From Acidiferrobacterales bacterium (GTDB lineage Bacteria > Pseudomonadota > Gammaproteobacteria > Acidiferrobacterales > JAJDNE01): 55,192 nt of DNA. The notes beneath the pieces were generated by a model, which did no database searches, was not told the origin of the DNA, and worked only from the letters and a program-made list of their open reading frames with translations. The stretch lies in contig JAJDNE010000059.1 in NCBI GenBank assembly GCA_022340825.1, forward strand, positions 1 through 55,192, given 5' to 3'. Made by a program: the position numbers and the translations under genes. Positions 21,458 through 29,736 of this stretch are shown one piece after another (the first letter of the stretch is position 1; each line of letters opens with the position of its first letter).

Positions 21458-21713
21458 GAGCTCCCTTCACTAAAACAGCATTTGCTAATTTACGTGCCAA
21501 TTTTCAGTGTTAACACAAGCTTCATGAAGCGCCAGTTTAGGCATTTTTTCAACCAGTTTTACTCGCAGTGAGCAAATTTTTTTTGTAGACTTGATTTAAC
21601 TGTGGTGTATGGCAGTGATCGTTCTGGAAAAATCCTACCTAGTAGTCCGACGAAAATTCCCTTTCATAACCCGCAGCAACCCAAGTTAATCAGAAAATTT
21701 AAGAGGAAATGGC

Positions 21714-21917
21714 ATGGCTACTGGTACCGTGAAATGGTTTAACGAATCGAAAGGCTTCGGCTTTATCTCTCAGGACGATGGCGGCAAAGACGTTTTCGTT
21801 CACTTCAGCGCCATCACTGGCGACGGCTTCAAGACACTGGCCGAAGGTCAGAAAGTAAGCTTTGAAGTGCAAGACGGCCCGAAGGGCCCTCAGGCAGCAA
21901 ACGTCGTTCCGCAGTAA
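21714..21917 (+). CDS. Cold-shock domain protein (CspA family)
   Basis: A 67-residue single cold-shock domain that binds single-stranded RNA and DNA and acts as an RNA chaperone. Both RNA-binding motifs are intact: RNP1 KGFGFI (residues 13-18) and RNP2 VFVHF (near 28-32), after the invariant start [14 protein letters not shown] lies six bases before the ATG. The upstream gap of 256 bases is long enough for the structured leader usual in this family. A strong terminator follows. Which paralogue it is cannot be told from the sequence. Confidence 0.97.
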
Positions 21918-21934
21918 ACTGTCGGAATGATCAT

Positions 21935-21967
21935 AAAAAGCCCCGCACGTGTGCGGGGCTTTTTTTT
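21935..21967 (+). terminator. Intrinsic terminator after the cold-shock gene
   Basis: A 13-pair stem (AAAAAGCCCCGCA with TGCGGGGCTTTTT) closes a CGTG loop and continues into eight T in total. The matching A-run on the left makes it able to work in both directions, which would also serve the convergent hydrolase-like gene. Confidence 0.95.
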
Positions 21968-23555: not shown

Positions 23556-24446
23556 TCAGCGGGTGCCGGTCAGATCGTTGCGGTTGAGCAAGAAAACTGT
23601 TTCCTCGCCGGACTCGTGGCTCAACCAGGTAAAGGGCATATGAGGGAAACGCTGCTCCAGCGCCTCGCGGCTCTCGCCCACCTCAACGATCAGCAGCCCG
23701 CCCTCGTTAAGGTGTTCCGCTGCCTGTGCCAGGATCCTGTCAACAATATCGAGACCATTGTCTTCAGCGACCAGCGCCAACTCCGGCTCGTGCTTGTATT
23801 CCTGGGGTAGCGCCAGCATGGACGATGGCGGGACGTAGGGCGGATTGCTCACAATAATGTCGTAGTGCCGATTGCCGAGCGCCTCAAACAGATCGGATTG
23901 AATCAGTTCGACACGATCGCCGAGGCCATAGTCCTGCATGTTCTTTATCGCAACCTTGAGCGCGTCAGCCGAAATGTCTGCCGCGTCGACATGGGTCTCG
24001 GGAAACTCCAGTGCAATGGCAATGGCGATACAGCCACTACCGGTACACAGATCCAGCACGCTGTGAATCCTGTCTTCCTCGATCCACGGCTGGAAGTGCT
24101 CGAGAATATATTCGGCTATCAGTGAACGCGGAATCAATGCGCGTTCGTCGATGTAGAAGCGGTGGCCGGCGAACCAGGCCTCATTAAGCAGATAGGCGAC
24201 CGGTATACGCTCGTCAATACGACGCCTGACCAGCGCATCGAGCTTGTTGATTTCACTTGCTGTCAGTTCACGCTCCAGCGCGTCATCAAGCTCGGCGGGA
24301 GCCAGGCCGATAGCACTGCCTACGAGCCAGGCCGCCTCGTCCAGCGCCTCCATCGTCCCGTGCCCGAAAAAGATATCGCTGTCCAGAAACTGTGCTTCGG
24401 CCTGATAGATATATTGACCCACTGTTGGCCGCGCACCTTCCTGCAT
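23556..24446 (-). CDS. prmB: Ribosomal protein L3 N5-glutamine methyltransferase PrmB
   Basis: SAM-dependent enzyme that methylates a glutamine of ribosomal protein L3 during 50S assembly. The 296-residue protein has an N-terminal helical domain, the SAM loop LDLCTGSGCIAIA at 131-143 and the glutamine-binding NPPY motif at 201-204. I take the ATG at 24446; a GTG just before it is also in frame. It lies 23 bases after the malic enzyme gene and is the last gene of the rpmE-to-prmB run. This differs from the common prmB-aroC pairing. Confidence 0.94.
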   Translation of the reverse strand: MQEGARPTVGQYIYQAEAQFLDSDIFFGHGTMEALDEAAWLVGSAIGLAPAELDDALERELTASEINKLDALVRRRIDERIPVAYLLNEAWFAGHRFYIDERALIPRSLIAEYILEHFQPWIEEDRIHSVLDLCTGSGCIAIAIALEFPETHVDAADISADALKVAIKNMQDYGLGDRVELIQSDLFEALGNRHYDIIVSNPPYVPPSSMLALPQEYKHEPELALVAEDNGLDIVDRILAQAAEHLNEGGLLIVEVGESREALEQRFPHMPFTWLSHESGEETVFLLNRNDLTGTR

Positions 24447-24469
24447 CACTGAAACCCGGTGTCAGTCCG

Positions 24470-25714
24470 CTACTTGTTGTAACGTTCGGGCAGCGGCCGC
24501 CGGGCAACACCGCTGTCGACTGCGGCCCGGGCAATCGCCGGTGCAACCGTATCGAGCAGGCGCGAGTCGAGCGGCTTGGGAATAATGTAATCCGGCCCGA
24601 ACGTGAGCGAGCCGAGCTTGTAGGCCTGCAACACTTCTGAGGGTACGGGCTCATGGGTCAGGTCACGCAGCGCTACCACACCCGCCTTCAACATCTCTCG
24701 ATTGATATGCGAGGCATGTACATCGAGTGCGCCACGGAAGATATAGGGAAAGCCGAGCACGTTGTTGACCTGGTTCGGATAGTCCGAGCGACCGGTGGCC
24801 ATGATGACATCGTCCCGTACTTTCTTTGCATCTTCCGGCCGAATCTCCGGGTCGGGATTGGCGAGGGCAAACACGATCGGATTCACAGCCATGCTTGCCA
24901 ACAGCGCATCACTGACCTTGCCACCACTGGAAACGCCGATAAAGATATCGGCATCTTTCATCGCATCTTCCAGGGTACGTTTATCCGTCTTGCCGGCAAA
25001 TTCCTGCTTGTACTGGTTCAAGTCGCTGCGGCCGTCGTGAATCACTCCCTTTCGGTCCACCAGCAATAACTTGTCCGGATCTGCGCCCAAATCGAGCAGT
25101 AATCGCATCGAGCTGATGCCGGCTGCACCGGCGCCAAGGCAAACGATTTGCGCATCGGCCAGCTCCTTGCCAGCAATTTCCAGTGCGTTAAGCAGGCCGG
25201 CACAGATAATGACGGCGGTACCGTGCTGATCATCGTGGAAAACCGGGATATCGAGTCGCTCCTCCAGTATGCGCTCGATTTCAAAACAGGCCGGTGCAGC
25301 AATATCTTCCAGATTGATACCACCGAATGTTGGTGCGATACGGGTAACGGTGTCGATAAACTCTTCCGGCGTTGCCGCATTGACCTCGATATCGAACACA
25401 TCGACATTGGCGAAGCGCTTGAACAATACGCCCTTACCTTCCATTACCGGCTTGCTTGCCAGCGCACCGGTATTGCCCAGGCCCAGCACTGCACTGCCGT
25501 CACTGATTACCGCCACCAGATTGCCCTTGTTGGTATAGCGATAGACATCTTCAGGATTGTCGGCAATGGCGCGCACCGGTGCAGCAACGCCGGGCGAGTA
25601 GGCCAGTGCCAGGTCCTCTTGGGTCCTGGTCGGCTTGGTGACCTCGGTAGCCAGTTTCCCGGGCACCGGGTGTTCATGGTATTCAAGTGCCGCTTGCATG
25701 AGTTTGTCGTTCAT
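24470..25714 (-). CDS. Malic enzyme, single-domain
   Basis: Oxidative decarboxylation of malate to pyruvate with NAD(P) reduction, in the cytoplasm. The 414-residue protein has the malic N-terminal domain (LALAYSPGVAAPVRAI near 36-51; SDGSAVLGLGNTGALASKPVMEGK), the metal-binding EDI and DDQHGTA segments, and the nucleotide loop GAGAAGI. It lacks the C-terminal phosphotransacetylase domain of MaeB. NAD or NADP use cannot be read safely. It starts eight bases after the M48 protease stop. The neighbourhood of malic enzyme, nuclease and rpmE is also known from pseudomonads. Confidence 0.93.
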   Translation of the reverse strand: MNDKLMQAALEYHEHPVPGKLATEVTKPTRTQEDLALAYSPGVAAPVRAIADNPEDVYRYTNKGNLVAVISDGSAVLGLGNTGALASKPVMEGKGVLFKRFANVDVFDIEVNAATPEEFIDTVTRIAPTFGGINLEDIAAPACFEIERILEERLDIPVFHDDQHGTAVIICAGLLNALEIAGKELADAQIVCLGAGAAGISSMRLLLDLGADPDKLLLVDRKGVIHDGRSDLNQYKQEFAGKTDKRTLEDAMKDADIFIGVSSGGKVSDALLASMAVNPIVFALANPDPEIRPEDAKKVRDDVIMATGRSDYPNQVNNVLGFPYIFRGALDVHASHINREMLKAGVVALRDLTHEPVPSEVLQAYKLGSLTFGPDYIIPKPLDSRLLDTVAPAIARAAVDSGVARRPLPERYNK

Positions 25715-25722
25715 ATGATTTC

Positions 25723-27216
25723 CTATTGGATAATCTTGACTGCCTCGCCAACCTGCAGTTCGCCGTCAGGGTACTTGTCGTTAATCAGACGCAACAAGCG
25801 TTCAGGATAATTGGGTATTGGTGACTTGCGCGCAAGTGCTTTAAAACTGGTATTACGACCGGCTTGCACGATACCAATACGCAGGCCCTTGGCCCATTGC
25901 CGCTCCCGGGCAGTAAGCGCGTGCATACTCGCCGCTACCTTAAGGAACACCGGGTCCGTTTGCTTTAATAGTGCATCGGTCTTGGTCGCACCAAAGAAGG
26001 CGTAGACACGGTCCTGATATAGCACGACGCTAACGCGCGCATTGCGCCGGCCGAACGGGGTGGCAATACGCGCTATTGCCGAATGGTTTGGCAGCTTCAA
26101 ACCGGGCACGGTCCCTTCCTGCTCCAGTTTCCCCAACTTGAGTTTGGTTGCCATCACCTGTTTGGCGGTCAGGTGTTCATCCTTTTTCAACTCCACCAGC
26201 CGCACTTCCATCGCGGCATCACGCCCGGGATTGGTTGCAGACAGTGCTTTCGGTTCATTGCTGAGGCGCCAGCCCGCGGGAAACGTCAGCGAAAAATTCA
26301 GGCCTTCATGATAGAAGGCGTTGTTGCGGCGAATGCCCTGGTTGACGCTGTCGCCAAAGACAACGCCGTCGAGCTGGGCGAGGTAAGATTCCCGGTTGAT
26401 GTGCCCGGGCTTGGTGCCGTTCTTCTTGTATTTATTGGCGGCGGCGACAACCTGCTGCAGACGGGTGTCTGCACTCGGGTGGGAAGCAAATACACCGTGA
26501 TATACACGCGGCTCCCGACCCTCTTTTGCAGCCCGCTCTTTCTCGAACTCTTCCTGGTTTTTCAGAATACCAATGACATCGATCATGGCATTGGGATCGT
26601 AGGAGGTGCGCGCCAGATATTCGGCGCCGAGGCGATCGGCTTCAAGTTCGTCTTCGCGGCCATAGCCGCTCAACATCGCATTACCAAGTATGTTCATGAG
26701 TTGCTGGCTGACATCGGTACGCAACTCCGGAACGAAGATGGTCGCGAGCGTCATGCCAACCGAGGTGGCCATCGCCTTGGAGTACTGTTGCACCCCATGC
26801 CGTGCCGTTACGTGGCCTATTTCGTGACCCAGCACCGCGGCCAGCTCCGCCTCCGAATTAATGTAAGCAAGGATGCCACGGGTTATATAGACATAGCCGC
26901 CGGGGAGAGCAAAGGCGTTGACCTCGGGGCTATCGAGCACGGTGAAGGTGTAGGTCAGATTCGTGCGATGACTATGCTTGACCAGCTCCTGTCCAATACG
27001 ATTTACGTACGCCTGCAATTCCGGGTCATCGTAGGCACCGTATTGCTTGATTATTTCCGGATGATTTTTCTTGCCGAGTGCAATCTCCCGCTCTTCAGAC
27101 ATGAGCGTCAGGTCCTGTTCACCGGTCACCGGGTTGGCCGCGCAACCGACCAGCAGTCCCGCGCCCATGACTGCGATGCTCAAAATCAACAATAGTTTGA
27201 TCGAACCCGCTTTCAT
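25723..27216 (-). CDS. M48-family metalloprotease lipoprotein
   Basis: A 497-residue zinc protease with a lipoprotein signal (lipobox LVGC, Cys25), so anchored in the envelope facing the periplasm. The zinc site HEIGH is at 131-135, and the third ligand glutamate lies in ELEADRLG near 183. It resembles BepA- and LoiP-type envelope quality-control proteases, but the C-terminal region is longer. The end (SPIPNYPERLLRLINDKYPDGELQVGEAVKII) resembles a LysM-like or LysM-remnant module. Its ATG overlaps the nuclease stop by four bases (ATGA), so translation is coupled. Confidence 0.9.
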   Translation of the reverse strand: MKAGSIKLLLILSIAVMGAGLLVGCAANPVTGEQDLTLMSEEREIALGKKNHPEIIKQYGAYDDPELQAYVNRIGQELVKHSHRTNLTYTFTVLDSPEVNAFALPGGYVYITRGILAYINSEAELAAVLGHEIGHVTARHGVQQYSKAMATSVGMTLATIFVPELRTDVSQQLMNILGNAMLSGYGREDELEADRLGAEYLARTSYDPNAMIDVIGILKNQEEFEKERAAKEGREPRVYHGVFASHPSADTRLQQVVAAANKYKKNGTKPGHINRESYLAQLDGVVFGDSVNQGIRRNNAFYHEGLNFSLTFPAGWRLSNEPKALSATNPGRDAAMEVRLVELKKDEHLTAKQVMATKLKLGKLEQEGTVPGLKLPNHSAIARIATPFGRRNARVSVVLYQDRVYAFFGATKTDALLKQTDPVFLKVAASMHALTARERQWAKGLRIGIVQAGRNTSFKALARKSPIPNYPERLLRLINDKYPDGELQVGEAVKIIQ

Positions 27217-27968
27217 TTCAGGATTTCCACCATCGCCGGATGTCCAATACGAACACGTAATTTATCACGCCAGAGACTGATCCATCCCCTGACCTGCACC
27301 CGTTTACCCTTCCATTTATTCGGGTCACCGCCAAAGTGATGCCAGTTGTCACGATCGATGGCAATGGCAAAATTTTCGGAGAGATCGAGATAGACGTACT
27401 TGCGACTCTGGCCGACTTGACTGATGGTGCCGGTAACGAAACGAAACCCGGTATCTCCGTCAGCCAGCAGCTGCGCCGGTACCGGCTGATAATAGCGCTC
27501 GGCCCAGATGCCTCGATTTGCGTTGCGGGCCTCGGCCTCGGCGTGCCGATAATCAGAAACGTGGGACAGGTTCGGCGGGATTGCGATCAGCACTGCCAGC
27601 CCCTGGCGAAGCAGGTACTCGCCAGCCGAGGCGCCAGCGGCATTGTCGACATAGGCAAGCGTGCGACCGTAGTGATCGTGGCGATCAGATCCGAACCGCA
27701 GCCTTGCGGACCCGTTGCCGAGGAAGGTTTGCAGGGCCTTCTTTGCCGCCTGCGCCAGCGGCTGGTCAGGGCGTCCATCCCGGCCAAGCTCGGGGGCGTT
27801 GATACCAATCAGGCGGATCTTGCGGCCATCGGCCAGTTGCAAAGTGTCGCCATCCACGACCCAACGGACCGCGACTGCCTCGCTGGCCGCGAGTGTGGTC
27901 GGCAGCAACAGCCATAACGCAAAAAAGGCACCCCAAAGGGATGCCTTTCTGTGCAAGTGAGTACTCAC
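27213..27968 (-). CDS. Exported thermonuclease-like (SNase) protein
   Basis: A staphylococcal-nuclease-fold protein of 251 residues. The signal peptide (ending TTLA-A near 28) exports it. The SNase core runs from VVDGDTLQL near 37 through RLIGINAPELGRDG (Arg catalytic) to the second catalytic region FGSDRHDHYGRTLAYV with Arg near 126. A C-terminal OB-like extension follows (RKYVYLDLSENFAIAI). The start is GTG, seven bases after the rpmE stop, with a poor ribosome-binding site. The rpmE terminator hairpin lies inside codons 7-16. It is coupled to the M48 gene downstream. Confidence 0.88.
   Translation of the reverse strand: MSTHLHRKASLWGAFFALWLLLPTTLAASEAVAVRWVVDGDTLQLADGRKIRLIGINAPELGRDGRPDQPLAQAAKKALQTFLGNGSARLRFGSDRHDHYGRTLAYVDNAAGASAGEYLLRQGLAVLIAIPPNLSHVSDYRHAEAEARNANRGIWAERYYQPVPAQLLADGDTGFRFVTGTISQVGQSRKYVYLDLSENFAIAIDRDNWHHFGGDPNKWKGKRVQVRGWISLWRDKLRVRIGHPAMVEILK
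27921..27948 (-). terminator. rpmE: Intrinsic terminator of rpmE inside the nuclease reading frame
   Basis: Read leftward, AAAGGCATCCC pairs with GGGGTGCCTTT (11 pairs, one U-G) around a TTT loop and ends in six T. This is a normal intrinsic terminator for rpmE, 27 bases past its stop codon. It falls within the signal-peptide codons of the nuclease, so it must be read through for the downstream four genes to be expressed from the rpmE promoter. Confidence 0.85.
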
Positions 27969-27974
27969 CTGTAT

Positions 27975-28184
27975 TTATTTCTTCATCGAACCGTACTTCT
28001 GGCGGAATTTCTCCACGCGGCCCGCGGTGTCGACGATCTTCTGCTTGCCGGTGTAGAACGGGTGGCAGGCAGAGCAAACTTCGACGTTCAGATCTTCGCC
28101 CAGGGTAGAGCGTGTCGTGAAGGTGTTGCCGCAAGTGCAGCTCACCTTCATATCGGTGTATTCGGGATGGATGCCGGTTTTCAT
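27975..28184 (-). CDS. rpmE: 50S ribosomal protein L31, zinc-binding form
   Basis: Ribosomal protein L31 of 69 residues, type with the zinc-binding cysteines: Cys16, Cys18, Cys37 and Cys40 (CTC and CSAC). This is the form usually replaced by the cysteine-free L31B when zinc is scarce. The start MKTGIHPEY and the end [10 protein letters not shown] are typical. An intrinsic terminator follows, inside the next gene. Between it and rho (28185-28334) I see only short non-coding sequence. Confidence 0.98.
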
Positions 28185-28334: not shown

Positions 28335-29591
28335 TTACCGCTTCATTGAGGCGAAGAATTCAGCGTTATTTTTGGTGGATTTCAGCCTATCCAGCAGGAA
28401 CTCCGATGCCTCAAGCTCATCCATCTGGTGCAGCAGCTTGCGCAGGATCCAGACCTTTTGCAGCTCGTCCGGGTCCAGCAACAGCTCTTCGCGGCGGGTG
28501 CCGGAACGATTGATATTGATCGCCGGGTAAACCCGCTTCTCCGCCAGACGACGGTCCAGGTGGACCTCCATGTTACCGGTGCCCTTGAACTCCTCGTAGA
28601 TGACATCGTCCATCTTGGAGCCGGTGTCGATCAGGGCGGTGGCCAGAATAGTCAGGCTGCCGCCTTCCTCGATATTACGGGCGGCGCCAAAGAATCGTTT
28701 CGGTCGCTGCAGGGCATTGGCGTCGACACCACCGGTAAGCACCTTGCCCGAGGCCGGTACTACGGTGTTATAGGCGCGCGCCAGGCGGGTAATGGAATCG
28801 AGCAGGATCACTACGTCTTTCTTGTGCTCCACCAGGCGCTTGGCCTTCTCGATCACCATTTCCGCGACCTGCACGTGACGTGTCGCCGGCTCATCAAAGG
28901 TGGAACTGATCACTTCACCCCGAACCGACCGCTGCATTTCCGTTACTTCTTCCGGGCGCTCATCGATCAGCAATACCATCAACATGCAATCCGGGTGATT
29001 GGCGGTAATGGCATGGGCAATCTGTTGCAACATCACGGTCTTGCCGCTCTTGGGTGAGGCCACCAGCAGGCCGCGCTGGCCCTTGCCGATGGGCGAAATC
29101 AGATCGATGACACGTGCGGTGAGGTTCTCGGTCGATTCGTTATCCTGTTCCAGACGCAAGCGGTCCTGCGGATGCAGCGGCGTCAGGTTTTCGAACAGGA
29201 TCTTGTTCTTGGCTTCTTCTGGTGACTGATGATTGATCTCTTCAACTTTCAGTAACGCGAAATAACGTTCGGATTCTTTCGGTGGACGGATGTTGCCGCG
29301 GATGGTGTCACCGGTACGCAGATTGAAACGGCGTATTTGTGAGGGTGATACATAGATATCGTCCGGGCCGGCAAGATAGGAGCTATCTGCTGATCGCAGA
29401 AAGCCGAAGCCGTCCTGCAATATTTCGACAACACCTTCGCCGGTAATGTTTTCGCCTTTCTTGGCCTGTGCCTTAAGGATGGCAAAGATCAGGTCCTGAC
29501 GACGCATGCGACTGCCACCTTCGAGCTTCAGCTCGGATGCCATGTCGACCAATTCTTGAGCGGGTTTTCTTTTTAGTTCTGAGAGATTCAT
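28335..29591 (-). CDS. rho: Transcription termination factor Rho
   Basis: Hexameric RNA-dependent ATPase that ends transcription. The start [14 protein letters not shown] and the 418-residue length match E. coli Rho (419). The N-terminal RNA-binding domain includes DGFGFLRS near 60-67. The ATPase core has the Walker A loop [12 protein letters not shown] near 178-188 and the Walker [12 protein letters not shown]. The frame is open for 46 more codons upstream, but that part is not Rho-like. The 197-base leader from trxA contains a strong hairpin at 29737-29768; rho is autoregulated in its leader in other bacteria. Order trxA-rho as in enterobacteria. Confidence 0.98.
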
Positions 29592-29736
29592 AGCCTTTAA
29601 ACGCGTTAACTGAGAGATATGGAACCCAGAGGAATGAAGCCTGCTGGAGTTGCCGGGAGAGAAAATAAACCAGGTTGAGTTGTTGGATGTTGCCAGTCGC
29701 CAAGTGAAGGAACGCGACCTGTATTTCACCTTAGCA

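Follow-up and report, generated by a model that had tools for sequence, protein, structure and literature searches.

A predicted rpmE terminator overlaps the signal-peptide codons of a downstream nuclease gene in Gammaproteobacteria

Introduction

In E. coli, the frd operon terminator that is at the same time the ampC attenuator lies in an untranslated leader. For this pair, PMC6045580 describes a terminator of an upstream unit that also attenuates the downstream gene, and cites growth-rate-dependent antitermination. In the case of the nlpD1-penA pair of Burkholderia, the upstream terminator TERM 264 was shown to attenuate the co-transcribed downstream gene; it folds within the 5' UTR, ending short of the coding sequence at 25-73 nt ahead of the start codon (PMC6045580). 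A functional intrinsic terminator in a translated frame is known from the attenuator of B. subtilis bmrB, where the frame encodes a leader peptide with a regulatory role and an antiterminator is present (PMC4191407). Finally, the synthetic construct W48 combines an upstream gene, a short gap, a start codon and a terminator (tR2, 30 bp past the AUG) within the new ORF (PMC4824070).

The influence of ribosomes on such terminators has been described for E. coli. A terminator only several bases past the upstream stop codon is repressed by the terminating ribosome; at about 17-18 nt the repression varies, with a termination efficiency (TE) of 0.12 or 0.8 depending on sequence, and beyond 27-30 nt TE is about 0.9 (PMC4824070). 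When the terminator lies 30 bp past a start codon, only about 10% of its efficiency is lost to translation of the ORF, because initiation (1-2 s) is slow compared with the polymerase and a new ribosome rarely catches up (PMC4824070). Translation of an overlapping ORF halved the expression of the upstream gene, which was ascribed to non-stop complexes (PMC4824070). In gamma-proteobacteria, ribosomal protein bL31, the product of rpmE, acts as a translational repressor of its own mRNA (PMC10931766).

Here we describe an rpmE-nuclease junction in a window of 55,192 nucleotides (the whole stretch of DNA analysed) that resembles these systems and differs from each of them. Unlike in ampC/frd, the predicted terminator coincides with codons of a signal peptide, and its conservation extends over a bacterial class. 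Unlike in attenuators of the trp or bmrB type, the translated frame is that of a full enzyme, a 251-aa nuclease, and not a short regulatory leader ORF; in the minimum-energy fold of the junction no antiterminator was found. W48 was engineered, whereas the rpmE-nuclease arrangement is natural and conserved. Our coverage of the literature was partial and priority is unproven; within it we found no report of a full enzyme whose signal-peptide codons retain a terminator, and none of a class-wide conservation of an overlap of this type.

Results

Gene order and hairpin at the rpmE-nuclease junction

The following features were identified, listed in the direction of transcription:

28335-29729, minus strand: rho, termination factor Rho, directly upstream of rpmE at a distance of 150 bases, with thioredoxin before rho
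27975..28184, minus strand: rpmE, ribosomal protein bL31 (ORF; PF01197 Ribosomal_L31, E 9.3e-35)
27954..27971, minus strand: nuclease start region with GTG 27968, TTG 27956 and the SD-like AGGTGAG
27213..27968, minus strand: exported SNase-type nuclease, 251 aa (ORF with GTG start; PF00565 SNase, E 7e-17; orthologues behind rpmE)
27921..27948, minus strand: predicted intrinsic terminator of rpmE, with an 11-12 bp stem, TTT loop and T6 tract, coinciding with nuclease codons 7-16
25723..27216, minus strand: M48-family protease, its start overlapping the nuclease end (ORF and domain match)
24470..25714, minus strand: malic enzyme, maeB-like (ORF and domain match)
23556..24449, minus strand: prmB-like methyltransferase, with which the packed gene set ends (ORF and domain match)

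The original prediction, made from this DNA alone, held that the genes downstream of rpmE are closely packed and that no clear promoter lies between rpmE and the nuclease. The ORF layout confirms the first point. Concerning the second, a promoter scan found no promoter-like site on the minus strand between both genes, and the few such sites across the region are at chance level. Expression of the M48 protease would depend either on read-through or on a promoter of its own. Two distances had to be corrected: six bases, and not seven, separate the rpmE stop from the nuclease GTG, and the stem begins 26, not 27, bases after the rpmE stop.

The hairpin, AAAGGCATCCC-TTT-GGGGTGCCTTT at 27948..27924, consists of 11 pairs, one of them G-U, with T6 at 27926..27921. 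Stem, loop and T6 thus agree with what had been predicted, except that three of the six T had already been counted in the stem. The fold has an energy of -18.3 kcal/mol (z about -4) that was equalled by 0 of 200 shuffles. A stable, G+C-rich stem-loop with a T-run immediately behind it, as found here, is typical of an intrinsic terminator. Hairpin and both genes are on the same strand, and the hairpin is placed after the rpmE stop and before the main part of the nuclease gene, inside the nuclease frame and not in an untranslated leader. Codons 7-16 read RKASLWGAFF, and the nuclease signal peptide is MSTHLHRKASLWGAFFALWLLLPTTLAA. A simple terminator scan of the window overlooked the hairpin, apparently because the scan requires T after the fully extended stem; an Rfam search of the hairpin region returned no family.

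Distribution among relatives and across the class

The nuclease was present in 30 of 60 relatives searched, with rpmE directly upstream in almost all of the 30. Nearly all relatives having the rpmE-nuclease pair showed a strong hairpin with a T-run within the first nuclease codons. Stem sequences differ among them (GGCGCTC/GAGCGCC, GGCGTCC/GGACGCC, GCACCCC/GGGGTGC and others). The arrangement is common to a set of named relatives including Pseudomonas, Halopseudomonas, Microbulbifer, Thiodiazotropha, Chromatiales and Thiotrichales, and 42 of 63 named relatives have the malic enzyme gene within 2.5 kb downstream of the nuclease.

For the class counts, genomes were taken evenly across the class and 126 nuclease loci were read, the unit being the locus, though loci share descent. 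The contigs of the named relatives were excluded, because they had been picked by similarity and some of the genomes duplicate those of the relatives search. Directly upstream of the nuclease, rpmE was found at 115 of the 126 loci. The hairpin counts are based on the 112 loci with a readable nuclease core. At 98 of these the hairpin lies in the open nuclease frame, 90 times after an in-frame ATG, GTG or TTG and 8 times without such a start. The remaining loci comprise 3 with the hairpin upstream of the ORF and 11 with none by the first rule, several of which carry a hairpin with a weaker T-run.

Chance expectations were obtained by permuting synonymous codons within each gene, so that the protein and the codon usage of each gene are preserved. 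As 49.5 loci were expected under a loose hairpin definition, a strict one was adopted: a length of no more than 30 nt, an energy of -10 kcal/mol or lower and a strong T-run. Such a strict hairpin occurs in the nuclease frame at 88 of 112 loci, compared with 10.7 expected, and this test is conservative, since the hairpin has already left its mark on the protein sequence that the permutation preserves. The predicted overlap between terminator and nuclease codons is therefore not only real at this locus, it is also far above chance across the class. Equal-length stretches inside the nuclease gene contained a strict hairpin in only 1 of 111 cases. The G+C core begins at a median of 34 nt after the rpmE stop and of 23-26 nt after the candidate nuclease start codons. 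About 5-10 of the 112 loci have the same gene order without the hairpin, so that the hairpin is common, yet neither essential nor obligatory.

Covariation and codon register

Covariation was analysed on 65 distinct sequences that were chosen for a symmetric hairpin; core pairing is therefore 100% by construction and only pair changes count. Both sides changed at 10 of the 12 stem pairs, in 67 cells as opposed to 19.2 after shuffling (reached by 0 of 500 shuffles), and structures slid by 1-3 columns had a far lower covariation score. The structure is thus kept by compensatory change. Furthermore, the hairpin centre falls in one codon phase in 65 of 70 loci, and insertions and deletions therefore come in threes. 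The original prediction had proposed to compare the stem in relatives, regarding loss of the hairpin with the protein kept as evidence against it. The alignments support the opposite, namely that in relatives compensatory, frame-preserving changes maintain the hairpin along with the hydrophobic signal.

Variation at shorter range was read from a single genus in the Pseudomonas-like family, with 56 genomes of which 28 were aligned. In this alignment the synonymous sites of the stem and T-tract codons, AAG GCG TCC / GTG GGC GCC TTT, are invariant, whereas the Leu codon of the loop appears as CTG, CTC, CTA and CTT, and the codons past the hairpin vary freely. Hence it seems that not only the protein but also the structure of the RNA or DNA is under selection.

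Natural controls

Loci in which one of the two genes is missing served as natural controls. Nucleases not behind rpmE had the hairpin in 0 of 11 cases in the class sample, a control somewhat weakened because several of the 11 are more distant SNase paralogues. Conversely, rpmE genes without the nuclease carried a strict terminator in 17 of 40 cases, within 62 nt of the stop and mostly at 21-35 nt, and these 17 hairpins are mostly non-coding; the other 23 of the 40 also lack a strict intrinsic terminator at this position. Two single loci are instructive. In L276 an apparently decayed nuclease remnant (KRASSQDALF; SLKRASSQDALF) follows rpmE and runs into a stop after about 73 codons, with the hairpin intact. 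In L242 the nuclease was lost and the hairpin is kept directly before the malic enzyme gene. Being absent without rpmE and often kept without the nuclease, the hairpin is, judging from these comparisons, the terminator of rpmE itself and persists after nuclease loss.

At a few loci (L024, L042, L117) a gap of more than 100 nt separates rpmE from the hairpin, which is still within the nuclease ORF; inheritance thus follows the ORF in addition to rpmE. Repeat-like insertions between the rpmE stop and the hairpin were seen in L018, L024 and L041, e.g. CTCCCTCTCCCGC...GCGGGAGAGGG in L024. They set the hairpin about 112 nt from rpmE and leave it in frame with the nuclease.

The nuclease start region

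Besides GTG 27968, the TTG at 27956 on the minus strand is a candidate start, with an SD energy of -3.9 kcal/mol compared with -1.0 for the GTG. The hairpin would be coding whichever of them is used. The start region AGGTGAGTACTCACTT itself folds into a 7-bp hairpin (27971..27965 with 27960..27954; -7.5 kcal/mol, z -2.6). This modelled structure could make the SD-like AGGTGAG and the two candidate starts inaccessible, and might serve as a site for a regulator or slow down initiation. In the minimum-energy fold of the junction it coexists with the terminator.

Weak starts are not particular to this locus. Among predicted starts in the same set of loci, 26 of 68 nucleases lack an ATG, as opposed to 1 of 50 malic enzymes (p about 1e-6). 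Likewise, SD energies of predicted starts are -1.7 kcal/mol for the nuclease and -3.5 for the malic enzyme (p about 1e-6), with -5.9 for rpmE. An ATG precedes the hairpin in about half of the loci, and 6 of the 88 strict-hairpin loci have no ATG, GTG or TTG before it. Such weakness of the predicted starts would agree with selection to keep ribosomes from becoming stranded on rpmE transcripts that end at the terminator.

In the class sample, the loci L198, L174, L189 and L196 have a nuclease frame without ATG, GTG or TTG upstream of the hairpin. In L198 and L174, ATT or CTG are apparently plausible start codons, with good signal peptides.

Discussion

We give a probability of roughly 0.8 to the reading that rpmE has its intrinsic terminator in this hairpin, overgrown by the signal-peptide codons of the nuclease, and that the hairpin constitutes a step-down between rpmE and the genes downstream. 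The signal-peptide region would have grown over the terminator and become fixed in one codon register: the 5' side, rich in A, would come from Lys/Arg codons of the n-region, the stem from Ala-x-x-Gly/Ser-Ala codons, and the T-tract from Phe/Leu codons in the hydrophobic core. At the hairpin the majority of RNA polymerases would stop and leave a monocistronic rpmE mRNA, and expression of the nuclease and of the genes that follow would come from the minority reading through. Thus, the element would be a built-in step-down from an abundant ribosomal-protein mRNA to scarce downstream products. The nuclease, protease and malic enzyme genes probably depend on this read-through, which we infer to be the main source of nuclease mRNA. 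Weak nuclease starts would in turn reduce the number of ribosomes stranded without a stop codon on terminated transcripts.

As the stem lies 26 nt past the rpmE stop and the core in the class at a median of 34 nt, termination in vivo is expected to be fairly full, by analogy with the E. coli spacing series. The text of a 3'-end paper on P. aeruginosa does not name rpmE.

The same spacing allows for an addition to this reading: a ribosome finishing rpmE close behind the polymerase might block the hairpin, and downstream expression would then follow rpmE translation. Both distances are near the 20-30 nt range in which TE depends on the ribosome (PMC4824070). Because bL31 represses its own synthesis in gamma-proteobacteria (PMC10931766), coupling of this kind might link the downstream genes to the supply of bL31. 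However, most loci are at or past the full-termination distance, where the effect could be nil, and we consider this addition tentative and somewhat doubtful. An extended account would join several of these elements: a class-wide dual code with terminator and export signal on the same bases, weak or non-canonical starts (ATT or CTG in some lineages) that avoid non-stop trapping, and a ribosome finishing rpmE that sets how much transcription reaches the nuclease-malic enzyme genes and so ties their expression to bL31 supply. As a whole, this is rather unlikely to be correct in all its parts.

The original prediction favoured a different modulator, i.e. ribosomes at the nuclease start that melt the hairpin, or allow it when absent, so that nuclease translation controls transcription of the operon. 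With the core at a median of 23-26 nt past the candidate starts, a ribosome a few codons into the nuclease would indeed disrupt the hairpin, and leader-ORF terminators of this kind exist, as bmrB demonstrates (PMC4191407). Nevertheless, the E. coli terminator 30 bp past an AUG lost only about 10% of its efficiency (PMC4824070), the weak nuclease starts argue for low nuclease translation, and in the minimum-energy fold of the junction no competing antiterminator was found, with start hairpin and terminator coexisting. At a spacing near that of full termination we regard control by nuclease translation as improbable and not as the main mechanism; if there is a modulator, the ribosome finishing rpmE is likelier than the one starting the nuclease.

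A role of the hairpin as an RNA element of the nuclease mRNA, e.g. slowing translation for export, would agree with its place in the signal-peptide codons and with the loci where it stays with the ORF far from rpmE. It is highly improbable and was rejected on the natural controls (0/11 without rpmE, 17/40 without the nuclease), as well as being at odds with the T-run. Equally far-fetched, and rejected on frame evidence, is an annotation artefact in which the gene begins past the hairpin and the upstream part of the ORF is untranslated: weak starts and the 6 of 88 loci with no ATG, GTG or TTG ahead of the hairpin would suit it, but the frame is open, the hairpin phase is fixed with indels in threes, an ATG lies upstream in about half of the loci, most orthologues would lose the core of their signal peptide without these codons, and within the genus the loop codon changes synonymously only.

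On the reading as an overgrown rpmE terminator, this is a natural case in which a signal at the nucleic-acid level dictates protein sequence, the terminator shaping much of the nuclease signal peptide, and this double use would extend over much of Gammaproteobacteria, Pseudomonas included. It also carries a warning, since such overlaps can escape terminator predictors, many of which exclude coding sequence, as well as selection tests based on codons and the annotation of start codons. Moreover, the junction offers a test system for the interplay of translation and termination at a terminator just past a weak start codon, and for the question whether weak starts evolve to avoid non-stop ribosomes.

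Additional observations

In a genome of the same order (G004, locus L255) the malic enzyme gene directly follows rpmE, with neither nuclease nor hairpin, which suggests an rpmE-maeB operon following the loss of both. Elsewhere in the window, at 21618-21966 on the plus strand, an Rfam match to the cspA thermoregulator (RF01766) scored 89.8 bits, above the gathering score.
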